Assembly: GCF_000260115.1 (NCBI RefSeq)
Contig: NZ_JH651380.1
Span: forward strand, 186,001-250,000
Direction: 5' to 3'
From: Galbibacter orientalis DSM 19592
Lineage (GTDB): Bacteria; Bacteroidota; Bacteroidia; Flavobacteriales; Flavobacteriaceae
Length of the DNA: 64,000 nt
Below the pieces are notes generated by a model. It had not been told where the DNA came from. It made no database searches and saw only the letters and a list, made by a program, of their open reading frames with translations. The translations under genes were made by a program, and so were the position numbers. This document shows positions 1,002 through 7,135 of this stretch, piece by piece (within the stretch, counting starts at the first letter, position 1; each line of letters opens with the position of its first letter).

Positions 1002-1832
1002 TTATAAATCTCGCTTTTTTAACAGGGCATAAGATAAATAAATAAACAGATAAGTCCATAATAGCACAATAAGTATTTCATACCAATGCACACCATAGTC
1101 TTTAATGTATGATTCTCCAATTTGATTAGCTACAGATTGTACAGCATTTAGTCTGCTAAAAGGTTCTTTTATTAAGTTGCTCATAGCGCTTAATGGTAAA
1201 AATTGTGAAATGCTATTGGCAATATTTCCATCGGTTTGCCAGCGTACAAGTCCGTAAAAAATACCTTCAAATACTTGCCATAGAATTAAAAAACCAAGAG
1301 CAAAAGCAGATCTTTTTACAAAGATCCCTAAGAACAAACAAAAAGAGAAAAAACCTAAGAGTTTTACAAAAAAGGCGATTAGGTATTCCAAATCAGAAAA
1401 AATAATGCTGAATTCATTATAATCAGAATAAAACAATCCTAAAACTAAAGAAACTACAAAGATAAAAACCGTAGAGATTACTGAAAAAACTACAACTGTA
1501 AGAAATTTAGAAAGGATAAATTCTTTTTTACTAAGACCGTCAATTAGGTTTTGTTTAATAGTTTTATTACTGTATTCGTTGGACATCATCGATACAATTA
1601 CGATGGCTAGAAACAGTTTAAAAAATGCAGCTATGTAAGTATTGAAATGCCATATGTAAGGAAAGTTAAAAATTCCTTGATCGGCTAGTTGGAAATGAAC
1701 TTCTCCTATATCAAAATTTATAGTAGCAAAAAGCGCTATAAAGGTGAGAAGGATAAAATATGCGATGATTAAAATTCTGCTTGCGCGATTATTCCACAAT
1801 TTTATAAATTCTATTTGGAGTAGTCGTTTCAT
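1002..1832 (-). CDS. ABC transporter permease (ABC-2 type)
   Basis: A 276-residue protein with six hydrophobic segments (about residues 18-40, 67-85, 110-135, 148-168, 172-195 and 252-272) and a basic N-terminus (MKRLLQIEFIKLWNN), the usual layout of ABC-2 permeases that pair with bacitracin/lantibiotic-export-type ATPases. The ATPase gene lies about 100 bp upstream on the same strand, so the two form an exporter in the inner membrane. The substrate cannot be told from sequence. The start is an ATG followed directly by the basic N-terminus. Confidence 0.85.
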   Translation of the reverse strand: MKRLLQIEFIKLWNNRASRILIIAYFILLTFIALFATINFDIGEVHFQLADQGIFNFPYIWHFNTYIAAFFKLFLAIVIVSMMSNEYSNKTIKQNLIDGLSKKEFILSKFLTVVVFSVISTVFIFVVSLVLGLFYSDYNEFSIIFSDLEYLIAFFVKLLGFFSFCLFLGIFVKRSAFALGFLILWQVFEGIFYGLVRWQTDGNIANSISQFLPLSAMSNLIKEPFSRLNAVQSVANQIGESYIKDYGVHWYEILIVLLWTYLFIYLSYALLKKRDL

Positions 1833-1935
1833 TTTTTAGTTTTTTATATCCTAATTAGTAGTAGGTTTTTGGTTTATGTTTTAAAACTTCTGAGCTGTTC
1901 TGAGTATTTAGAAGAGCTTAGGCAGAGATGCTTTT

Positions 1936-2838
1936 TTAGTTGCTTTGGTTTTTTGTAAGCGCTAAAAATTGTTCTTCTAAACTTTCTTTTCTTTTAACCA
2001 AATGAGAAAGAATAATCCCATTTTTAAATAGAAATTCGTTAAAAGTGGTAGCATCCATCGGTTCATTTAAAAATGCGGTAATAAGTCCGTTTTCATTTTT
2101 TATAGAACCAAAAGCAGGATTATTATGGAGTAAATCTATTAGCGCCTTTTCATTCCCTGCTTTTAACTCAAAGAATCCGTGACTAGCAATCATTTCATCT
2201 ACACGGCCGCTATAAAGTTTAACCCCTTTTCTAAGAATGATTACATGGGAACATACTTTTTCTACTTCATCTAACAAATGCGAAGCTAAAAGGATGGTAG
2301 TTCCTGTAGAAGCAATTTTCTTTATAATTTCTCTAATTTGGTGAATCCCTTGCGGGTCAAGTCCGTTTGTTGGTTCGTCGAGAATTAAAATTTCAGGATC
2401 GTTTAACAAGGCAGAAGCAATAGCAAGACGTTGTTTCATCCCTAAAGAATAGGTTCTAAAGTTACTGTCCTTTCGATCCAAAAGACCAACCAATTCCAAC
2501 TTTTCTTCAATTTTAGAATCTGGAACATCTTTTATTTTGCAGACTAATTTTAAATTTTGGACAGCCGTCATATATGGATAAAAGTTTGGTCGCTCTATAA
2601 TGGCGCCTACTTTTTTCAATGCTTGGTGGGTTGAGGTATTACCATCAAACCAAAAGAAATCTCCATTTGTTTTGTTAACTACATTGAGCACAATCCCAAG
2701 TGTAGTAGACTTTCCGCTCCCATTAGGGCCTAAAATTCCGTATACATTTCCTTTTTCAATAGTAAAAGAAAGGTCGTTTACTGCAGTTAAAAAATTAAAC
2801 TTTTTAGTGAGATTTTTTACGGTGAGAATAGTTTCCAA
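1936..2838 (-). CDS. ABC transporter ATP-binding protein (BcrA-like)
   Basis: A 300-residue ABC ATPase. The Walker A motif GPNGSGKST is at residues 37-45, the signature YSLGMKQRLAIA at about 130-141 and Walker B LILDEP at 151-156, followed by the D-loop NGLDP and the switch histidine in ASHLLDE. The C-terminal 80 residues form the accessory domain seen in bacitracin-resistance-type exporters. It is the first gene of a minus-strand unit with the ABC-2 permease. The unit is divergent from the gene at 2939, and a 16-bp palindrome lies between them. Confidence 0.9.
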   Translation of the reverse strand: METILTVKNLTKKFNFLTAVNDLSFTIEKGNVYGILGPNGSGKSTTLGIVLNVVNKTNGDFFWFDGNTSTHQALKKVGAIIERPNFYPYMTAVQNLKLVCKIKDVPDSKIEEKLELVGLLDRKDSNFRTYSLGMKQRLAIASALLNDPEILILDEPTNGLDPQGIHQIREIIKKIASTGTTILLASHLLDEVEKVCSHVIILRKGVKLYSGRVDEMIASHGFFELKAGNEKALIDLLHNNPAFGSIKNENGLITAFLNEPMDATTFNEFLFKNGIILSHLVKRKESLEEQFLALTKNQSN

Positions 2839-2938: not shown

Positions 2939-4009
2939 ATGAGCGAGAAATTAATGTCGAAAAAAAAACCGTCGTATCCCGTAAACGAGCGTTTTTTAAT
3001 GTATTTGGAAAGGTATAATAGAACTACCAAAATTCCAATATCTTATGATGATTTATTACGTTTTTCGGGTTCGGTAGTGGTTTATGATGAAGATGATAAC
3101 GACACCCTATGGATTCGTGTATATTATTCTGAATTTGAACGACCAGAAATAGATTATCATTTAAAGCAAGTGTACACTCTTATTTTTTCTGATGGAAATG
3201 AAGATACTTTTCAGTATTTAAATATAGACGCAATTGATTTTTGTACGTTTGGAAATTCGCAGCCTTTTCGTATAAAAGTGAGGAATGTTTTAAATGATAA
3301 CTATACATACATTTATGTTAAAAAAGCAGATGCTTCGCGTATTTATGGCTTAGAATTAGAGCATATATTGTCTCCTAATCGGATGAATTTTGCGGTGTAT
3401 CACGATACTTTAATTGAAGAACATATTTCTGGAATTCCTGGAGATGAGTTTATAAAAAGTGCTTTGCCTAGTTGTACCGATATTCAGAAAAGTCAGATTG
3501 CAAAAGAGTTTGTTAAGTTTAATGAGCGCTGTATGATTCGTTTATTAGGAGATATGCGTTCTTATAACTACGTAATTATTCCTGTACACGATTTTGACAA
3601 TGTAATTTTTAAAATTCGAGCTATTGATTTTGACCAACAATCTTATGAGGGGAATTTTAAGGTTTACAAACCTCAGTTTTTCAAAGAAAATAATAAAATG
3701 GTGCAAATGGTTCAGGAGAGGTTAAAGCCAGCGTCTATTGAGCAATATAAAAAAGAAGAACGCTCCCTGTTGGCTAAGCGAATTCTAACTTCAAAAAAGC
3801 GCTTAAAAGCCTTATTGAGATGTATGATAAACGACCATATTACAACTCCTGAAAATTTAGAAGAGCTAAAAGAAGAACTTTATAATTATACCCTGGATGT
3901 GAAGTTTAAACGCTGTCGTTCTATGGGGCAAGTTGTGAGAGTGGCTTTGGAATTTGTTAGAAGAAATTATGAAGATGTAAGTATGAAAAGATTATTGCAC
4001 GGGAGCTAA
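2939..4009 (+). CDS. Conserved protein with kinase-fold (APH/PKL-like) motifs
   Basis: A 356-residue soluble protein that I do not recognise as a named family. The middle reads like a kinase of the aminoglycoside-phosphotransferase/HipA superfamily. A possible beta-3 lysine lies in YIYVKKAD (K128/K129). A following helix holds E139/E141 (GLELEHIL), then a hinge-like LIEEHISGIPGDEF (159-171). A catalytic-loop-like LGDMRSYN (G204-N210) has the D-x4-N spacing, and IDFD (229-232) sits where the metal-binding aspartate would be. The last 100 residues are helical and basic. There is no signal peptide or membrane segment. A second ATG at codon 6 is an alternative start. The kinase reading is inference from motif order and spacing. 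Confidence 0.75.
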   Translation: MSEKLMSKKKPSYPVNERFLMYLERYNRTTKIPISYDDLLRFSGSVVVYDEDDNDTLWIRVYYSEFERPEIDYHLKQVYTLIFSDGNEDTFQYLNIDAIDFCTFGNSQPFRIKVRNVLNDNYTYIYVKKADASRIYGLELEHILSPNRMNFAVYHDTLIEEHISGIPGDEFIKSALPSCTDIQKSQIAKEFVKFNERCMIRLLGDMRSYNYVIIPVHDFDNVIFKIRAIDFDQQSYEGNFKVYKPQFFKENNKMVQMVQERLKPASIEQYKKEERSLLAKRILTSKKRLKALLRCMINDHITTPENLEELKEELYNYTLDVKFKRCRSMGQVVRVALEFVRRNYEDVSMKRLLHGS

Positions 4010-4142: not shown

Positions 4143-4175
4143 AAAAAAAGCCTGGCGGAGCCACCACCAGGCTTC
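4143..4175 (-). terminator. Rho-independent terminator of the ammonium operon
   Basis: AAGCCTGG (4149-4156) pairs with CCAGGCTT (4168-4175). Read on the minus strand the stem is followed by eight T residues. It lies about 155 bp beyond the porin stop codon, between convergent genes. Confidence 0.75.
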
Positions 4176-4329: not shown

Positions 4330-5388
4330 TTAAAAAGCATATACCGCCGCTACTAAAAAGGATGCTAGGCTTCCTGTAGGATTGTCATCTCCGTCTAAAA
4401 AGATGTCCTCAGAAGCGCTATCAAATCTTAATTCTGGTTTTATAGTTAAATCACTAATTTTATAGTTTCCTGTTAATGTAAATTCAAATACATCAGCATC
4501 ACTATCTGGTGCTAAGCCAAATACTCCAACACCACCATCAAATTCTTTAAAATATTCTCCACGAAGTCCGACAGAGAATTTTTCTGATGTTGCATATTGA
4601 GGGTATAGTGCAAAACCATAGAATCCAGAACCATCGGTAGTGTTGTAAGTAGTGTTTATTCCTAAGTAAAAAGCGTCAGATAAATCAAATCCACCTGTAT
4701 AATCTACTTGAAAAGTTTCTCCTGGTAAACCTGTTTGAGCCCCGTAAATAAAGTTTAAATACTGACCTTTATATCCTAATTGAGCTCCAGCTGTATAGCT
4801 TCCGTCAAGATTTATTTCTGTAAAGTCTGTACTGTTCATAACAGCCAACATTAAAGAAAAATCATCAGAAAGTGTAAAATCTGCTTTTATTCCAGTGTGA
4901 GAGAATGGTCCGTAAGAGAACATATAAGAAGTAGAGTAATTAAAGTTACCTACAGGAGAAATAACTTCATATCCTAAAAAGGTGTTGAAGTTCCCCATTG
5001 TCAATCTTACTTTTTCGCTTACATTCCAGTATACATATAATTGATTTACAATATTTGCAGAACCAGTAGATAAGAAAACAGCATCTTCTCCACGAGGTCC
5101 GAAAACTAAATCGGCTACAAAACCTACTTTTTCCCCTTCATAAGAAGCTATAAGGTTTGCCATACCTAGTGCAAATCCACTTCTATTAGCAAAAGAAGTA
5201 GGAGGGGTGTTAAACATTCCGTCTCCATCTGCCTCATTAGTTCCGGTTAAATTTGTTTTCCAGTAAACGTCTGCAGATCCACTAAAATTAAATTTTTTAT
5301 CTTCTTGAGCAAAAGTGCTTAAACTAGCTAATGAAACCGCTAGGAAAAATATATTTTTTACGACATTTGTAAGTGTAATCGCTTTCAT
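4330..5388 (-). CDS. Outer-membrane beta-barrel porin (OmpL/BBP2-like)
   Basis: A 352-residue protein with a signal peptide (hydrophobic core FFLAVSLASLSTFAQ, predicted cut near residue 28). The mature part alternates polar and aromatic residues, as in beta-strands, and ends in an aromatic residue (AAVYAF), the usual outer-membrane barrel end. It resembles the family of putative beta-barrel porins that accompany ammonium transporter genes in flavobacteria. It is the third gene behind glnK and amtB on the same strand, after a 148-bp spacer with a strong stem-loop. A role in letting ammonium or small nitrogen compounds through the outer membrane is inference from context. Confidence 0.8.
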   Translation of the reverse strand: MKAITLTNVVKNIFFLAVSLASLSTFAQEDKKFNFSGSADVYWKTNLTGTNEADGDGMFNTPPTSFANRSGFALGMANLIASYEGEKVGFVADLVFGPRGEDAVFLSTGSANIVNQLYVYWNVSEKVRLTMGNFNTFLGYEVISPVGNFNYSTSYMFSYGPFSHTGIKADFTLSDDFSLMLAVMNSTDFTEINLDGSYTAGAQLGYKGQYLNFIYGAQTGLPGETFQVDYTGGFDLSDAFYLGINTTYNTTDGSGFYGFALYPQYATSEKFSVGLRGEYFKEFDGGVGVFGLAPDSDADVFEFTLTGNYKISDLTIKPELRFDSASEDIFLDGDDNPTGSLASFLVAAVYAF

Positions 5389-5472
5389 AATATTAAAAGT
5401 TAATTTGTTGTTTGGTTTATTAATGAATTGGTCAGATAATTAGAATATTAATTTTTACAAAAGTGGGTTACC

Positions 5473-5505
5473 GAACGGAGCGTACCGCCAAATACCGCTC
5501 CGTTC
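5473..5505. other. Strong intercistronic stem-loop between amtB and porin
   Basis: GAACGGAGCG pairs with CGCTCCGTTC around a 13-nt loop. A T-run follows only on the plus strand; on the transcribed minus strand there is none. It is therefore more likely an mRNA processing or stability element between amtB and the porin gene than a classical terminator. Confidence 0.55.
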
Positions 5506-5536
5506 TTTTTTACCCTTTAAAATAAAAACTAACTAA

Positions 5537-6766
5537 CTAACGATCTATAGTGAAGTCTGGATAAGCTGCACCATCATGTTCGTGCATATCCAATCCTTCT
5601 ATTTCTTCTTCTTTTGTAACTCTTAATCCCAATGTTTTTTTCAGGATAAATAATACAATGAACGATGTAACTAATGCCCATACACCGATTCCTACAACTC
5701 CAATAGCTTGAATTCCAAGTTGACTAAATCCTCCTCCGTAAAGAAGTCCTCCATCAGTAGCAAAAACACCAACTAATAAAGTTCCTAAAGCTCCACAAAC
5801 TCCATGTACAGAAATTGCTCCAACAGGATCATCAATTTTTAGAGTTTTGTCGATAAATTCAATAGAGAATACCACTGTTAATCCAGAAAGGATTCCTATA
5901 ATGGCTGCACCTCCAGGGCTTACAGCAGCACATCCAGCAGTAATTCCAACTAAACCAGCCAAAGCACCGTTAAGAGTCATAGATACTTCTGGTTTTCCGT
6001 AGCGTATCCATGTAAGCGCTAAAGCAGTTACTGCACCAGCAGCTGCGGCAAGGTTTGTAGTAATAATAATACCAGCAGCGTTGAAAGAGCTTTCTCCGCT
6101 AATTGCTAGCTCAGATCCAGCATTAAAACCGAACCATCCTAACCAAAGGATAAATACTCCTAATGCTCCAAACATCATGTTGTGTCCTGGGATAGCATTC
6201 GATTTTCCTTCTGTGTATTTCCCTATTCTTGGACCTACTAAAATTGCTCCAACTAATGCAGCCCATCCTCCAACGGAGTGTACTACTGTAGAACCTGCAA
6301 AGTCTATAAATCCAAGTTTTGTTAACCATCCGTCACCTTGCCATACCCAGTGGCCAGATATTGGATAGATTAATGTTGTCATAATTAGCGAAAAAATAAC
6401 ATAGGTAGTAAACTTTGTTCTTTCTGCTACGGCTCCAGAAACTATGGTAGCTGCTGTTGCGCAAAATACTGTTTGAAAGAATAAGTTGTGCATGTCTTCT
6501 CGCACATTGTAAAATAATGAAGGAGTACCAATAAAACTACTGATAGATTCTCCATACATTAATGTGTAACCAATAAACCAAAAAGCTAAAGAACCTACAG
6601 CGAGATCCACAAAGTTTTTCATTACTATATTGATTACATTTTTAGATCTTGTGAAACCAGATTCTACAAGTGTAAAACCTGCTTGCATAAAAAACACGAG
6701 AATCCCCGCGATCATTATCCACATTATATCTAGAACTGCGTTCACTTCTATAACGTTTGTTTCCAT
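5537..6766 (-). CDS. amtB: Ammonium transporter AmtB
   Basis: A 409-residue inner-membrane protein with about eleven hydrophobic segments. The Amt/Rh signature is present: IDFAGSTVVHSVGG with the conserved Asp155 and the first pore histidine His163, and the second pore histidine His321 in GAISVHGVCGALG. It conducts ammonium/ammonia into the cell. The length is normal for bacterial Amt without a long tail, and there is no visible cleavable signal peptide. It lies 30 bp behind glnK, the usual pairing in which the PII protein blocks the channel when nitrogen is plentiful. Confidence 0.95.
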   Translation of the reverse strand: METNVIEVNAVLDIMWIMIAGILVFFMQAGFTLVESGFTRSKNVINIVMKNFVDLAVGSLAFWFIGYTLMYGESISSFIGTPSLFYNVREDMHNLFFQTVFCATAATIVSGAVAERTKFTTYVIFSLIMTTLIYPISGHWVWQGDGWLTKLGFIDFAGSTVVHSVGGWAALVGAILVGPRIGKYTEGKSNAIPGHNMMFGALGVFILWLGWFGFNAGSELAISGESSFNAAGIIITTNLAAAAGAVTALALTWIRYGKPEVSMTLNGALAGLVGITAGCAAVSPGGAAIIGILSGLTVVFSIEFIDKTLKIDDPVGAISVHGVCGALGTLLVGVFATDGGLLYGGGFSQLGIQAIGVVGIGVWALVTSFIVLFILKKTLGLRVTKEEEIEGLDMHEHDGAAYPDFTIDR

Positions 6767-6796
6767 AAAAAGTTTTTTTAAATTAGTTTAGTTGGT

Positions 6797-7135
6797 TTAC
6801 TTTAATGATTCTTTGCCTTTTTCCCTCGTTCTAATTCGGTAGGCTTCTTCTACAGGAGATACTATTATTTTACCGTCACCAACATTTCCTGAATATGCTG
6901 ATTTAAGGATGGCTTCAATCGTACGTTCAGCAAATTCATCTGAAACAATGATTGACAAATACCGTCTTTGGATATCGGCAGTACTGTAACTTACACCACG
7001 ATACACATGGCCTTTTTTCTCGTTACCTACTCCCGTAACATCCCAGTAACTAAAAAAGTTTACTTCTACTTGATGTAACGCATCTCGTACGTCATCAAAT
7101 TTTGATTTACGAATAATGGCTTCAATTTTCTTCAT
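6797..7135 (-). CDS. glnK: PII nitrogen regulatory protein (GlnK/GlnB)
   Basis: A 112-residue PII protein. It opens with MKKIEAIIRKSKFDDVRDAL, the typical first strand and helix. The T-loop region HVYRGVSYSTADIQ keeps the tyrosine that is uridylylated in proteobacteria, within a Bacteroidota-type loop, and GDGKIIVSPVEEAYRIRT is the C-terminal PII signature. It senses ATP/ADP and 2-oxoglutarate and would gate AmtB, encoded 30 bp downstream. It is first in the glnK-amtB-porin unit, with a long (384-bp) upstream region containing an inverted repeat. Confidence 0.93.
   Translation of the reverse strand: MKKIEAIIRKSKFDDVRDALHQVEVNFFSYWDVTGVGNEKKGHVYRGVSYSTADIQRRYLSIIVSDEFAERTIEAILKSAYSGNVGDGKIIVSPVEEAYRIRTREKGKESLK

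Follow-up and report, generated by a model that had tools for sequence, protein, structure and literature searches.

A widespread Bacteroidota protein is a probable ATP-dependent kinase with a predicted fold nearest to PI3/PI4-kinase-family catalytic domains

The PI3-type kinase fold is best known from eukaryotic lipid signaling and, in bacteria, from secreted effectors. In the sections of PMC7298712 and PMC9758233 on which we draw, the bacterial phosphoinositide-kinase effectors LepB, LegA5, OpiA, Risk1, MavQ and AnkK are described as kinases of bacterial origin with PI3/PI4-type sites. They are secreted, target the lipids of a host and vary in their presence. The section on Risk1, a bacterial PI3 kinase, reports that its H297A mutant is kinase-dead (PMC7298712), and we infer that H297 is the histidine of the Asp-Arg-His (DRH) motif. 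The broader protein-kinase-like superfamily was surveyed by Kannan et al. (2007; PMC1821047), and the portions of that survey used here join PI3 kinases, alpha-kinases and IDH kinase to the superfamily only through structure or key motifs. The key residues of its 20 families (Lys, Glu, Asp, Asn, Asp) are common to the protein family described here, and those portions name no family of this kind.

The protein is encoded within the window, the whole 64,000-nucleotide stretch of Galbibacter orientalis DSM 19592 DNA that we analyzed, by an open reading frame for 356 amino acids that runs from an ATG at position 2939 to a TAA stop codon ending at position 4009 on the plus strand. The gene is present in single copy in its 4.5 Mb genome, its product matches no Pfam and no NCBIfam family, and its closest named relative, from Galbibacter mesophilus, is 94% identical. 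Unlike the secreted effectors, it is chromosomal, is carried mostly by free-living hosts and is found in most members of its bacterial family. We consider it probable that the protein belongs to the protein-kinase-like superfamily and acts as an ATP-dependent kinase; the fold predicted for it lies nearest to the catalytic domains of the PI3/PI4-kinase family. Its features are as follows.

2939..4009, plus strand: open reading frame for the predicted kinase-fold protein (P0001), 356 amino acids, stop codon included; homologs in 118 of 149 family genomes.
2939..3217, plus strand: residues 1-93, the N-terminal part, helical with two short strands, preceding the N-lobe (DSSP, both models; pLDDT below 50 at residues 1-7).
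3245..3271, plus strand: residues 103-111, TFGNSQPFR, loop joining strand 94-102 to strand 110-116; may bind phosphate.
3320..3340, plus strand: residues 128-134, K128-x2-D131-x2-R134, where the putative beta-3 lysine leads into helix C; all 187 distinct proteins share the three named residues.
3332..3370, plus strand: residues 132-144, helix C (DSSP, both models), which carries E139 and E141; only Glu or Asp at both positions.
3407..3448, plus strand: residues 157-170, strand 5 and hinge-like TLIEEHISGIPGDE; H162 and G165 invariant.
3545..3568, plus strand: residues 203-210, putative catalytic loop LGDMRSYN with D205 and N210; L203, G204, D205, M206 and N210 invariant.
3623..3640, plus strand: residues 229-234, IDFDQQ, candidate metal-binding Asp motif around D230, occupying the DFG position; conservation scored in 187 proteins.
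3683..3970, plus strand: residues 249-344, helical C-lobe (DSSP, both models), inside the range aligned to PI3/PI4-kinase domains.

Conservation was scored in sets of 81 flavobacterial, 27 diverse and 156 distinct sequences, and finally in 187 distinct proteins from 198 loci. In this last set K128, D131, R134, H162, G165, G204, D205, M206, N210, D230, F231, D232 and Q233 are invariant, the two acidic residues of helix C exchange only with aspartate (E139, 180 Glu and 7 Asp; E141, 186 Glu and 1 Asp), Q234 is replaced once, by serine, in 187 proteins, and K129 is variable, with lysine in 133. The original prediction had picked out a hidden set of kinase motifs in this protein, and E139, E141, EEHISGIPGDE (160-170), G204-D205-M-R-S-Y-N210 and I229-D230-F231-D232 all lie at the residues it named; the VKK it placed at 128-129 is also present, as V127-K128-K129, with that label covering the two lysines only. 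It had further named free variation of D205, N210 or D230 among homologs as grounds for abandoning a kinase site, and none of the three varies in the 187 distinct proteins. When the positions it nominated were counted among 156 distinct homologs, 8 of 11 were invariant as compared with 37 of 356 overall (hypergeometric P = 8.6e-7), and against a background of Asp, Glu, Asn and Lys alone the figures were 5 of 8 and 10 of 102 (P = 1.5e-4); both P values assume independent positions, which motif residues are not, and are to be read as guides. On these comparisons, the nominated residues appear to be conserved more than chance would give.

Two AlphaFold2 models, of the window protein (mean pLDDT 82.2, pTM 0.82) and of a Flavobacterium homolog 65% identical to it (mean pLDDT 83.2, pTM 0.82), were built by one method from one common set of 81 sequences and are thus not independent of each other. 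In both, a predicted N-lobe comprises strands at 94-102, 110-116 and 121-129, the last ending near K128, and a helix at 132-144 that carries E139 and E141; strands at 151-154 and 157-161, the hinge and a helix at 181-205 with D205 at its end come next, followed by strands at 209-218, which begins in the region of N210, and 221-230, which ends on D230, and by a helical C-terminal part. As modeled, this is the secondary-structure order of a kinase, with the motif residues at kinase positions. Confidence is low in the catalytic loop (201-210, mean pLDDT 60 in the window protein and 57 in the homolog) and falls below 50 over most of 232-247 in the first model and most of 234-242 in the second.

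The original prediction had proposed structure prediction followed by a structure search as its check, and the outcome agrees with a kinase, weakly with Foldseek and at the level of the PI3/PI4 kinases with VIA-align 2. Against the PDB, Foldseek returned 1836 and 1865 matches for the two models at E <= 10 but only 2 and 1 at E <= 0.001; among the best 50 of each, nearly all are titled as a kinase or a kinase complex (one title in the homolog's list, that of 3gok, does not specify), and the top rows include the pseudokinase domains of JAK2 and TYK2, Wee1 and a plant-type 'kinase'. These matches are weak, with TM-scores mostly of 0.2-0.35 and rmsd mostly of 13-20 A. In BFVD, viral serine/threonine kinases lead, with four rows at E <= 0.001. 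VIA-align 2, which re-scores only the top 1000 chains from Foldseek, placed PI3/PI4-kinase-family domains in all 50 of the best 50 rows for each model, drawn from Vps34, p110 gamma, p110 delta, PI4K III beta and mTOR, with Z of 9.5-11.8 for the window protein and 9.7-11.8 for the homolog, rmsd of 4.4-5.3 A and aligned lengths mostly of 250-279 residues over a model range of about 16-349. The best match (Z 11.8, 4.7 A, 268 residues) stands above the 7 to 8 at which unrelated models typically peak according to the tool's own guide, without being overwhelming. Taken with the conserved residues, these matches make a kinase-like fold highly probable, and activity in phosphotransfer likely. Within the chains compared, the closest known structures appear to be PI3/PI4 kinases rather than APH or HipA.

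The PI3/PI4 kinases also offer the closest residue-level comparison. In PDB entries of Vps34 and p110 gamma, K-H-G-D-D-L-R spans strand 3 and helix C, G-D-R-H-x-x-N forms the catalytic loop and I-D-F-G lies at the metal site. The family shares K-x2-D-x2-R and D-x4-N with both enzymes at identical spacing, so that Lys, Asp, Arg, Gly, Asp, Asn and Ile-Asp-Phe all agree; it also has a hinge-like LIE, and its highest VIA scores span most of the protein. It departs from them in having GDM[R/H] rather than GDRH, with M206 in place of the arginine in 187 of 187 proteins and Arg (161) or His (26) at the histidine position, in having IDFD rather than IDFG, with D232 invariant in 187, and in separating the two aspartates by 25 residues instead of 18. 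No match to the PI3/PI4-kinase profile PF00454 was found in 81 and 27 members of the family. Since the protein fails the PF00454 profile and lacks the exact D-R-H-x2-N and Asp-Phe-Gly features, we do not file it as a PI3/PI4-kinase member, even though its fold, as predicted and compared by VIA, is of that kind. The wider protein-kinase-like superfamily accommodates it: the lysine, helix-C glutamate, catalytic aspartate and asparagine, and metal-site aspartate all occur in order, within a two-lobed kinase fold that is itself predicted, with weak Foldseek scores and a low-confidence catalytic loop. Our preferred description is of an unnamed family that probably works like a kinase and, in the models, is built most like a PI3/PI4 kinase.

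Searches at the level of sequence gave no significant link to a kinase family among PDB sequences (phmmer and hmmsearch), and none was found in NCBIfam, PADLOC or PHROGs, the last queried with three proteins; the best chance-level Pfam rows are non-kinases, for example CFAP300 at E 0.0006 in 1 of 27 members. The PI3/PI4 placement therefore rests on predicted structure. For a family of this kind, sequence methods can be expected to fail, because PI3 kinases, alpha-kinases and IDH kinase were themselves tied to the superfamily by structure or key motifs only, according to the portions of Kannan et al. cited above (PMC1821047). With hhalign, probabilities against HipA, APH, UbiB and a small HipA-like group were 0.1-0.2%, as compared with 0.1-1.1% for 22 unrelated control families, in a test that is insensitive, given that HipA against APH also scored 0.1% (APH against UbiB, 36.8%); a length filter kept 14 of 20 fetched loci for HipA and 14 of 20 for APH, and the UbiB and HipA-like profiles held two each. 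Several APH rows lack the catalytic motif, so wrong frames were possibly taken and the APH profile is weak. With three PI3-kinase sequences as the target, hhalign aligned the GD and IDF motifs at a local score that 3 of 40 column shuffles also reached (12 of 40 for HipA, 9 of 40 for APH), which is suggestive and statistically not significant. The Galbibacter genome itself has no PF00454 match, and it has a HipA_C match at another locus. Across Bacteroidota, PF00454 gave weak sub-cut-off matches in 5 of 148 genomes, and we rejected these five loci as relatives: on reading, two are UbiB-like and two HipA-like, and no open frame carrying the match came to light for the fifth. A HipA-like group of 268-301 amino acids (L160, L161) combines the loop NxDRTxRNTN with LIDHG and a weak PF00454 match. 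Among the papers retrieved by searches of the open-licence PMC literature, no title or abstract start describes the family, a weak indication of absence given that orthologue locus tags were unavailable as queries.

The original prediction had assigned the protein to the APH/choline-kinase or HipA branch, as a kinase acting on a small molecule or a protein. Its kinase reading is upheld by the invariant residues and by the kinase structures listed for the two models, and its choice of branch fares poorly. The shared order of Lys, Glu, Asp-x4-Asn and Asp, together with the resemblance of GD-x-[RH]-x2-N followed by IDFD to APH-type loops, speaks for that branch, as does the preference of Foldseek for ordinary protein kinases over PI3 kinases; against this, no member of the 81 or 27 matched PF01636 (APH) or PF07804 (HipA_C), and where the APH-type HGD has its histidine, the family has an invariant leucine, L203. 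The background-level hhalign probabilities point the same way, though HipA against APH fails as well and some APH rows lack the motif. No APH or HipA chain is among the rows listed by Foldseek or VIA for either model, and the VIA rows are PI3/PI4 kinases, although APH and HipA chains may lie outside the 1000 that VIA re-scores. We regard an APH or HipA placement as unlikely.

If the protein is a kinase of the predicted fold, its mechanism can be outlined by analogy with known kinases. ATP-Mg would bind between the two lobes; K128, on strand 3 and held by E141 or E139 of helix C, would bind the ATP phosphates; D205 would act as the catalytic base, and N210 and D230 would hold the metal ions. 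Residue 207 (R/H), at the place of the PI3-kinase DRH histidine, may contact the transferred phosphate. The TFGNSQPFR loop, in which N106, P109 and R111 are invariant and position 107 is Ser or Thr across the 187 distinct proteins, has a possible phosphate-binding role by its likeness to the KKPLW loop of p110 gamma.

Kinase folds are also re-used for other chemistry, as in SelO and SidJ, and the protein could instead be an AMP-transferase, an atypical ATPase like UbiB or a pseudokinase scaffold. Its IDFD in place of DFG, its DM[R/H] in place of DRH and its occasional aspartate for the helix-C glutamate would suit such a use, but the lysine, aspartate, asparagine and aspartate are invariant in all 187 proteins, unlike a decayed site, and we judge this a shade less likely even than an APH or HipA placement. 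That the protein has no kinase fold at all, and that the motif arose by coincidence in a conserved enzyme of another kind, is very improbable: significant sequence evidence is lacking, Foldseek scores are weak and the catalytic loop is modeled at low confidence, but the motif, the secondary-structure order and the structural matches concur, and kinases were matched in all three libraries.

The distribution of the gene is that of a chromosomal, nearly always single-copy component of many Bacteroidota, with a large set of lineages lacking it. A protein search detected the gene in 118 of the 149 genomes sampled from the same family (99 of 125 when restricted to good quality) and in 80 of the 296 sampled across the phylum, and a profile of 27 sequences found it in 99 of 395 genomes; positive genomes belong to the same family, order and class and to other classes of the phylum. 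Apart from two decayed fragments in a single genome (G391), every match is better than 1e-135, so that the family is sharply bounded, with no twilight relatives within the sample. Those fragments (C1:3158145-3158416) and a copy broken into two overlapping frames in another genome (G061, C1:298724-299759) are recent losses. One genome (G237) carries two diverged copies, at C31:94192 and C3:105221 (L148, L157), with 48% and 42% identity to the window protein. No match was found in 72,556 plasmid records, and none of 68 pattern matches on viral contigs encoded a relative. We considered and rejected a mobile element or a toxin-antitoxin system, on the grounds that plasmid and viral relatives were not found and that no partner gene recurs across lineages apart from the bshA arrangement described below.

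Invariance extends beyond the catalytic residues to C102, N106, P109, R111, H162, G165, K189, Y243, N251 and Q269 in the 187 proteins. Because the active-site surface is so constant, we infer that the enzyme probably has a single conserved substrate, protein or small molecule; an invariant surface of this kind argues for one ancient substrate rather than for a role in an arms race. PI3/PI4 kinases act on phosphoinositides or, in the PIKK branch, on proteins. We also considered a phosphoinositide kinase, whose hosts would be expected to synthesize phosphatidylinositol, and think it unlikely. The departures from true PI3 kinases, together with the presence of inositol-phosphate synthase (PF01658) in only 1 of 149 family genomes, itself 82% complete with 6% contamination, suggest that the substrate is probably not phosphatidylinositol, though phosphatidylinositol could be taken up from outside. 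PF01658 is absent from the Galbibacter genome.

Gene neighborhoods differ between lineages. In the Flavobacteriaceae, the gene stands by itself across the 81 loci compared (the window plus 80 more); an ATPase gene of an ABC-2 transporter is present in 61 and is adjoining and divergent in 55, so shared regulation may exist. In the window, an ABC-2 transporter permease and ATPase pair (1002-2838, minus strand) is divergently oriented to the kinase-like gene, and about 100 bp separate the two. On its other side, an inverted repeat, aagcctgg...ccaggctt (4148-4174), lies where the kinase-like gene and the following minus-strand gene converge, between their ends, and looks like a two-way terminator; beyond it, genes for an outer-membrane porin-like protein, an ammonium transporter and a PII-like regulator stand in a row (4330-7135, minus strand). 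Across the 64 kb window, ARAGORN found neither a tRNA nor a tmRNA gene.

In loci from the phylum's other classes, bshA, which encodes the bacillithiol glycosyltransferase, lies directly upstream on the same strand, with a gap of about 0-132 bp, in 15 of 20 loci from 7 of 9 sampled families; it is absent from this position in two loci of one family (f18) and three of another (f37). The whole neighborhood is syntenic there and other genes recur as well, so the bshA pair may be one inherited arrangement. An MBL-fold hydrolase gene, identified by its HAHLDH-type motif, is convergent and just downstream in several other-class loci (including L230 and L220), some of which lack bshA upstream. The 19 loci from the same class or order have no bshA within about 6 kb, and in one Flavobacteriaceae genome (G143) bshA lies about 540 bp downstream on the same strand. 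As bshA is near-universal (288 of 296 phylum genomes, and 149 of 149 family genomes at E <= 0.001, 142 of them over the cut-off), its co-occurrence with the kinase is uninformative; none of the eight bshA-less phylum genomes is among the 80 that carry the kinase. A link to bacillithiol or thiol metabolism is a lead and a weak hint, and we think it doubtful.

Our more far-reaching suggestion is a tentative one: that the family represents a bacterial branch of the PI3/PI4-kinase fold, native and established long ago, which serves many Bacteroidota as a core chromosomal enzyme and works in the manner of a PI3-type kinase on a substrate other than phosphatidylinositol, for example a sugar-containing metabolite of the bacillithiol pathway or a protein. 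If the kinase reading is correct, a highly conserved 'hypothetical protein' that 118 of the 149 genomes sampled from its family encode would be an enzyme with a PI3-type kinase fold, open to a clear biochemical test based on ATP, metal and D205, and its presence would indicate a missing phosphorylation step in Bacteroidota. It would also supply a divergent relative for studying the origin of PI3/PI4 kinases, and could inform how the eukaryotic PI3/PI4/PIKK kinases arose.
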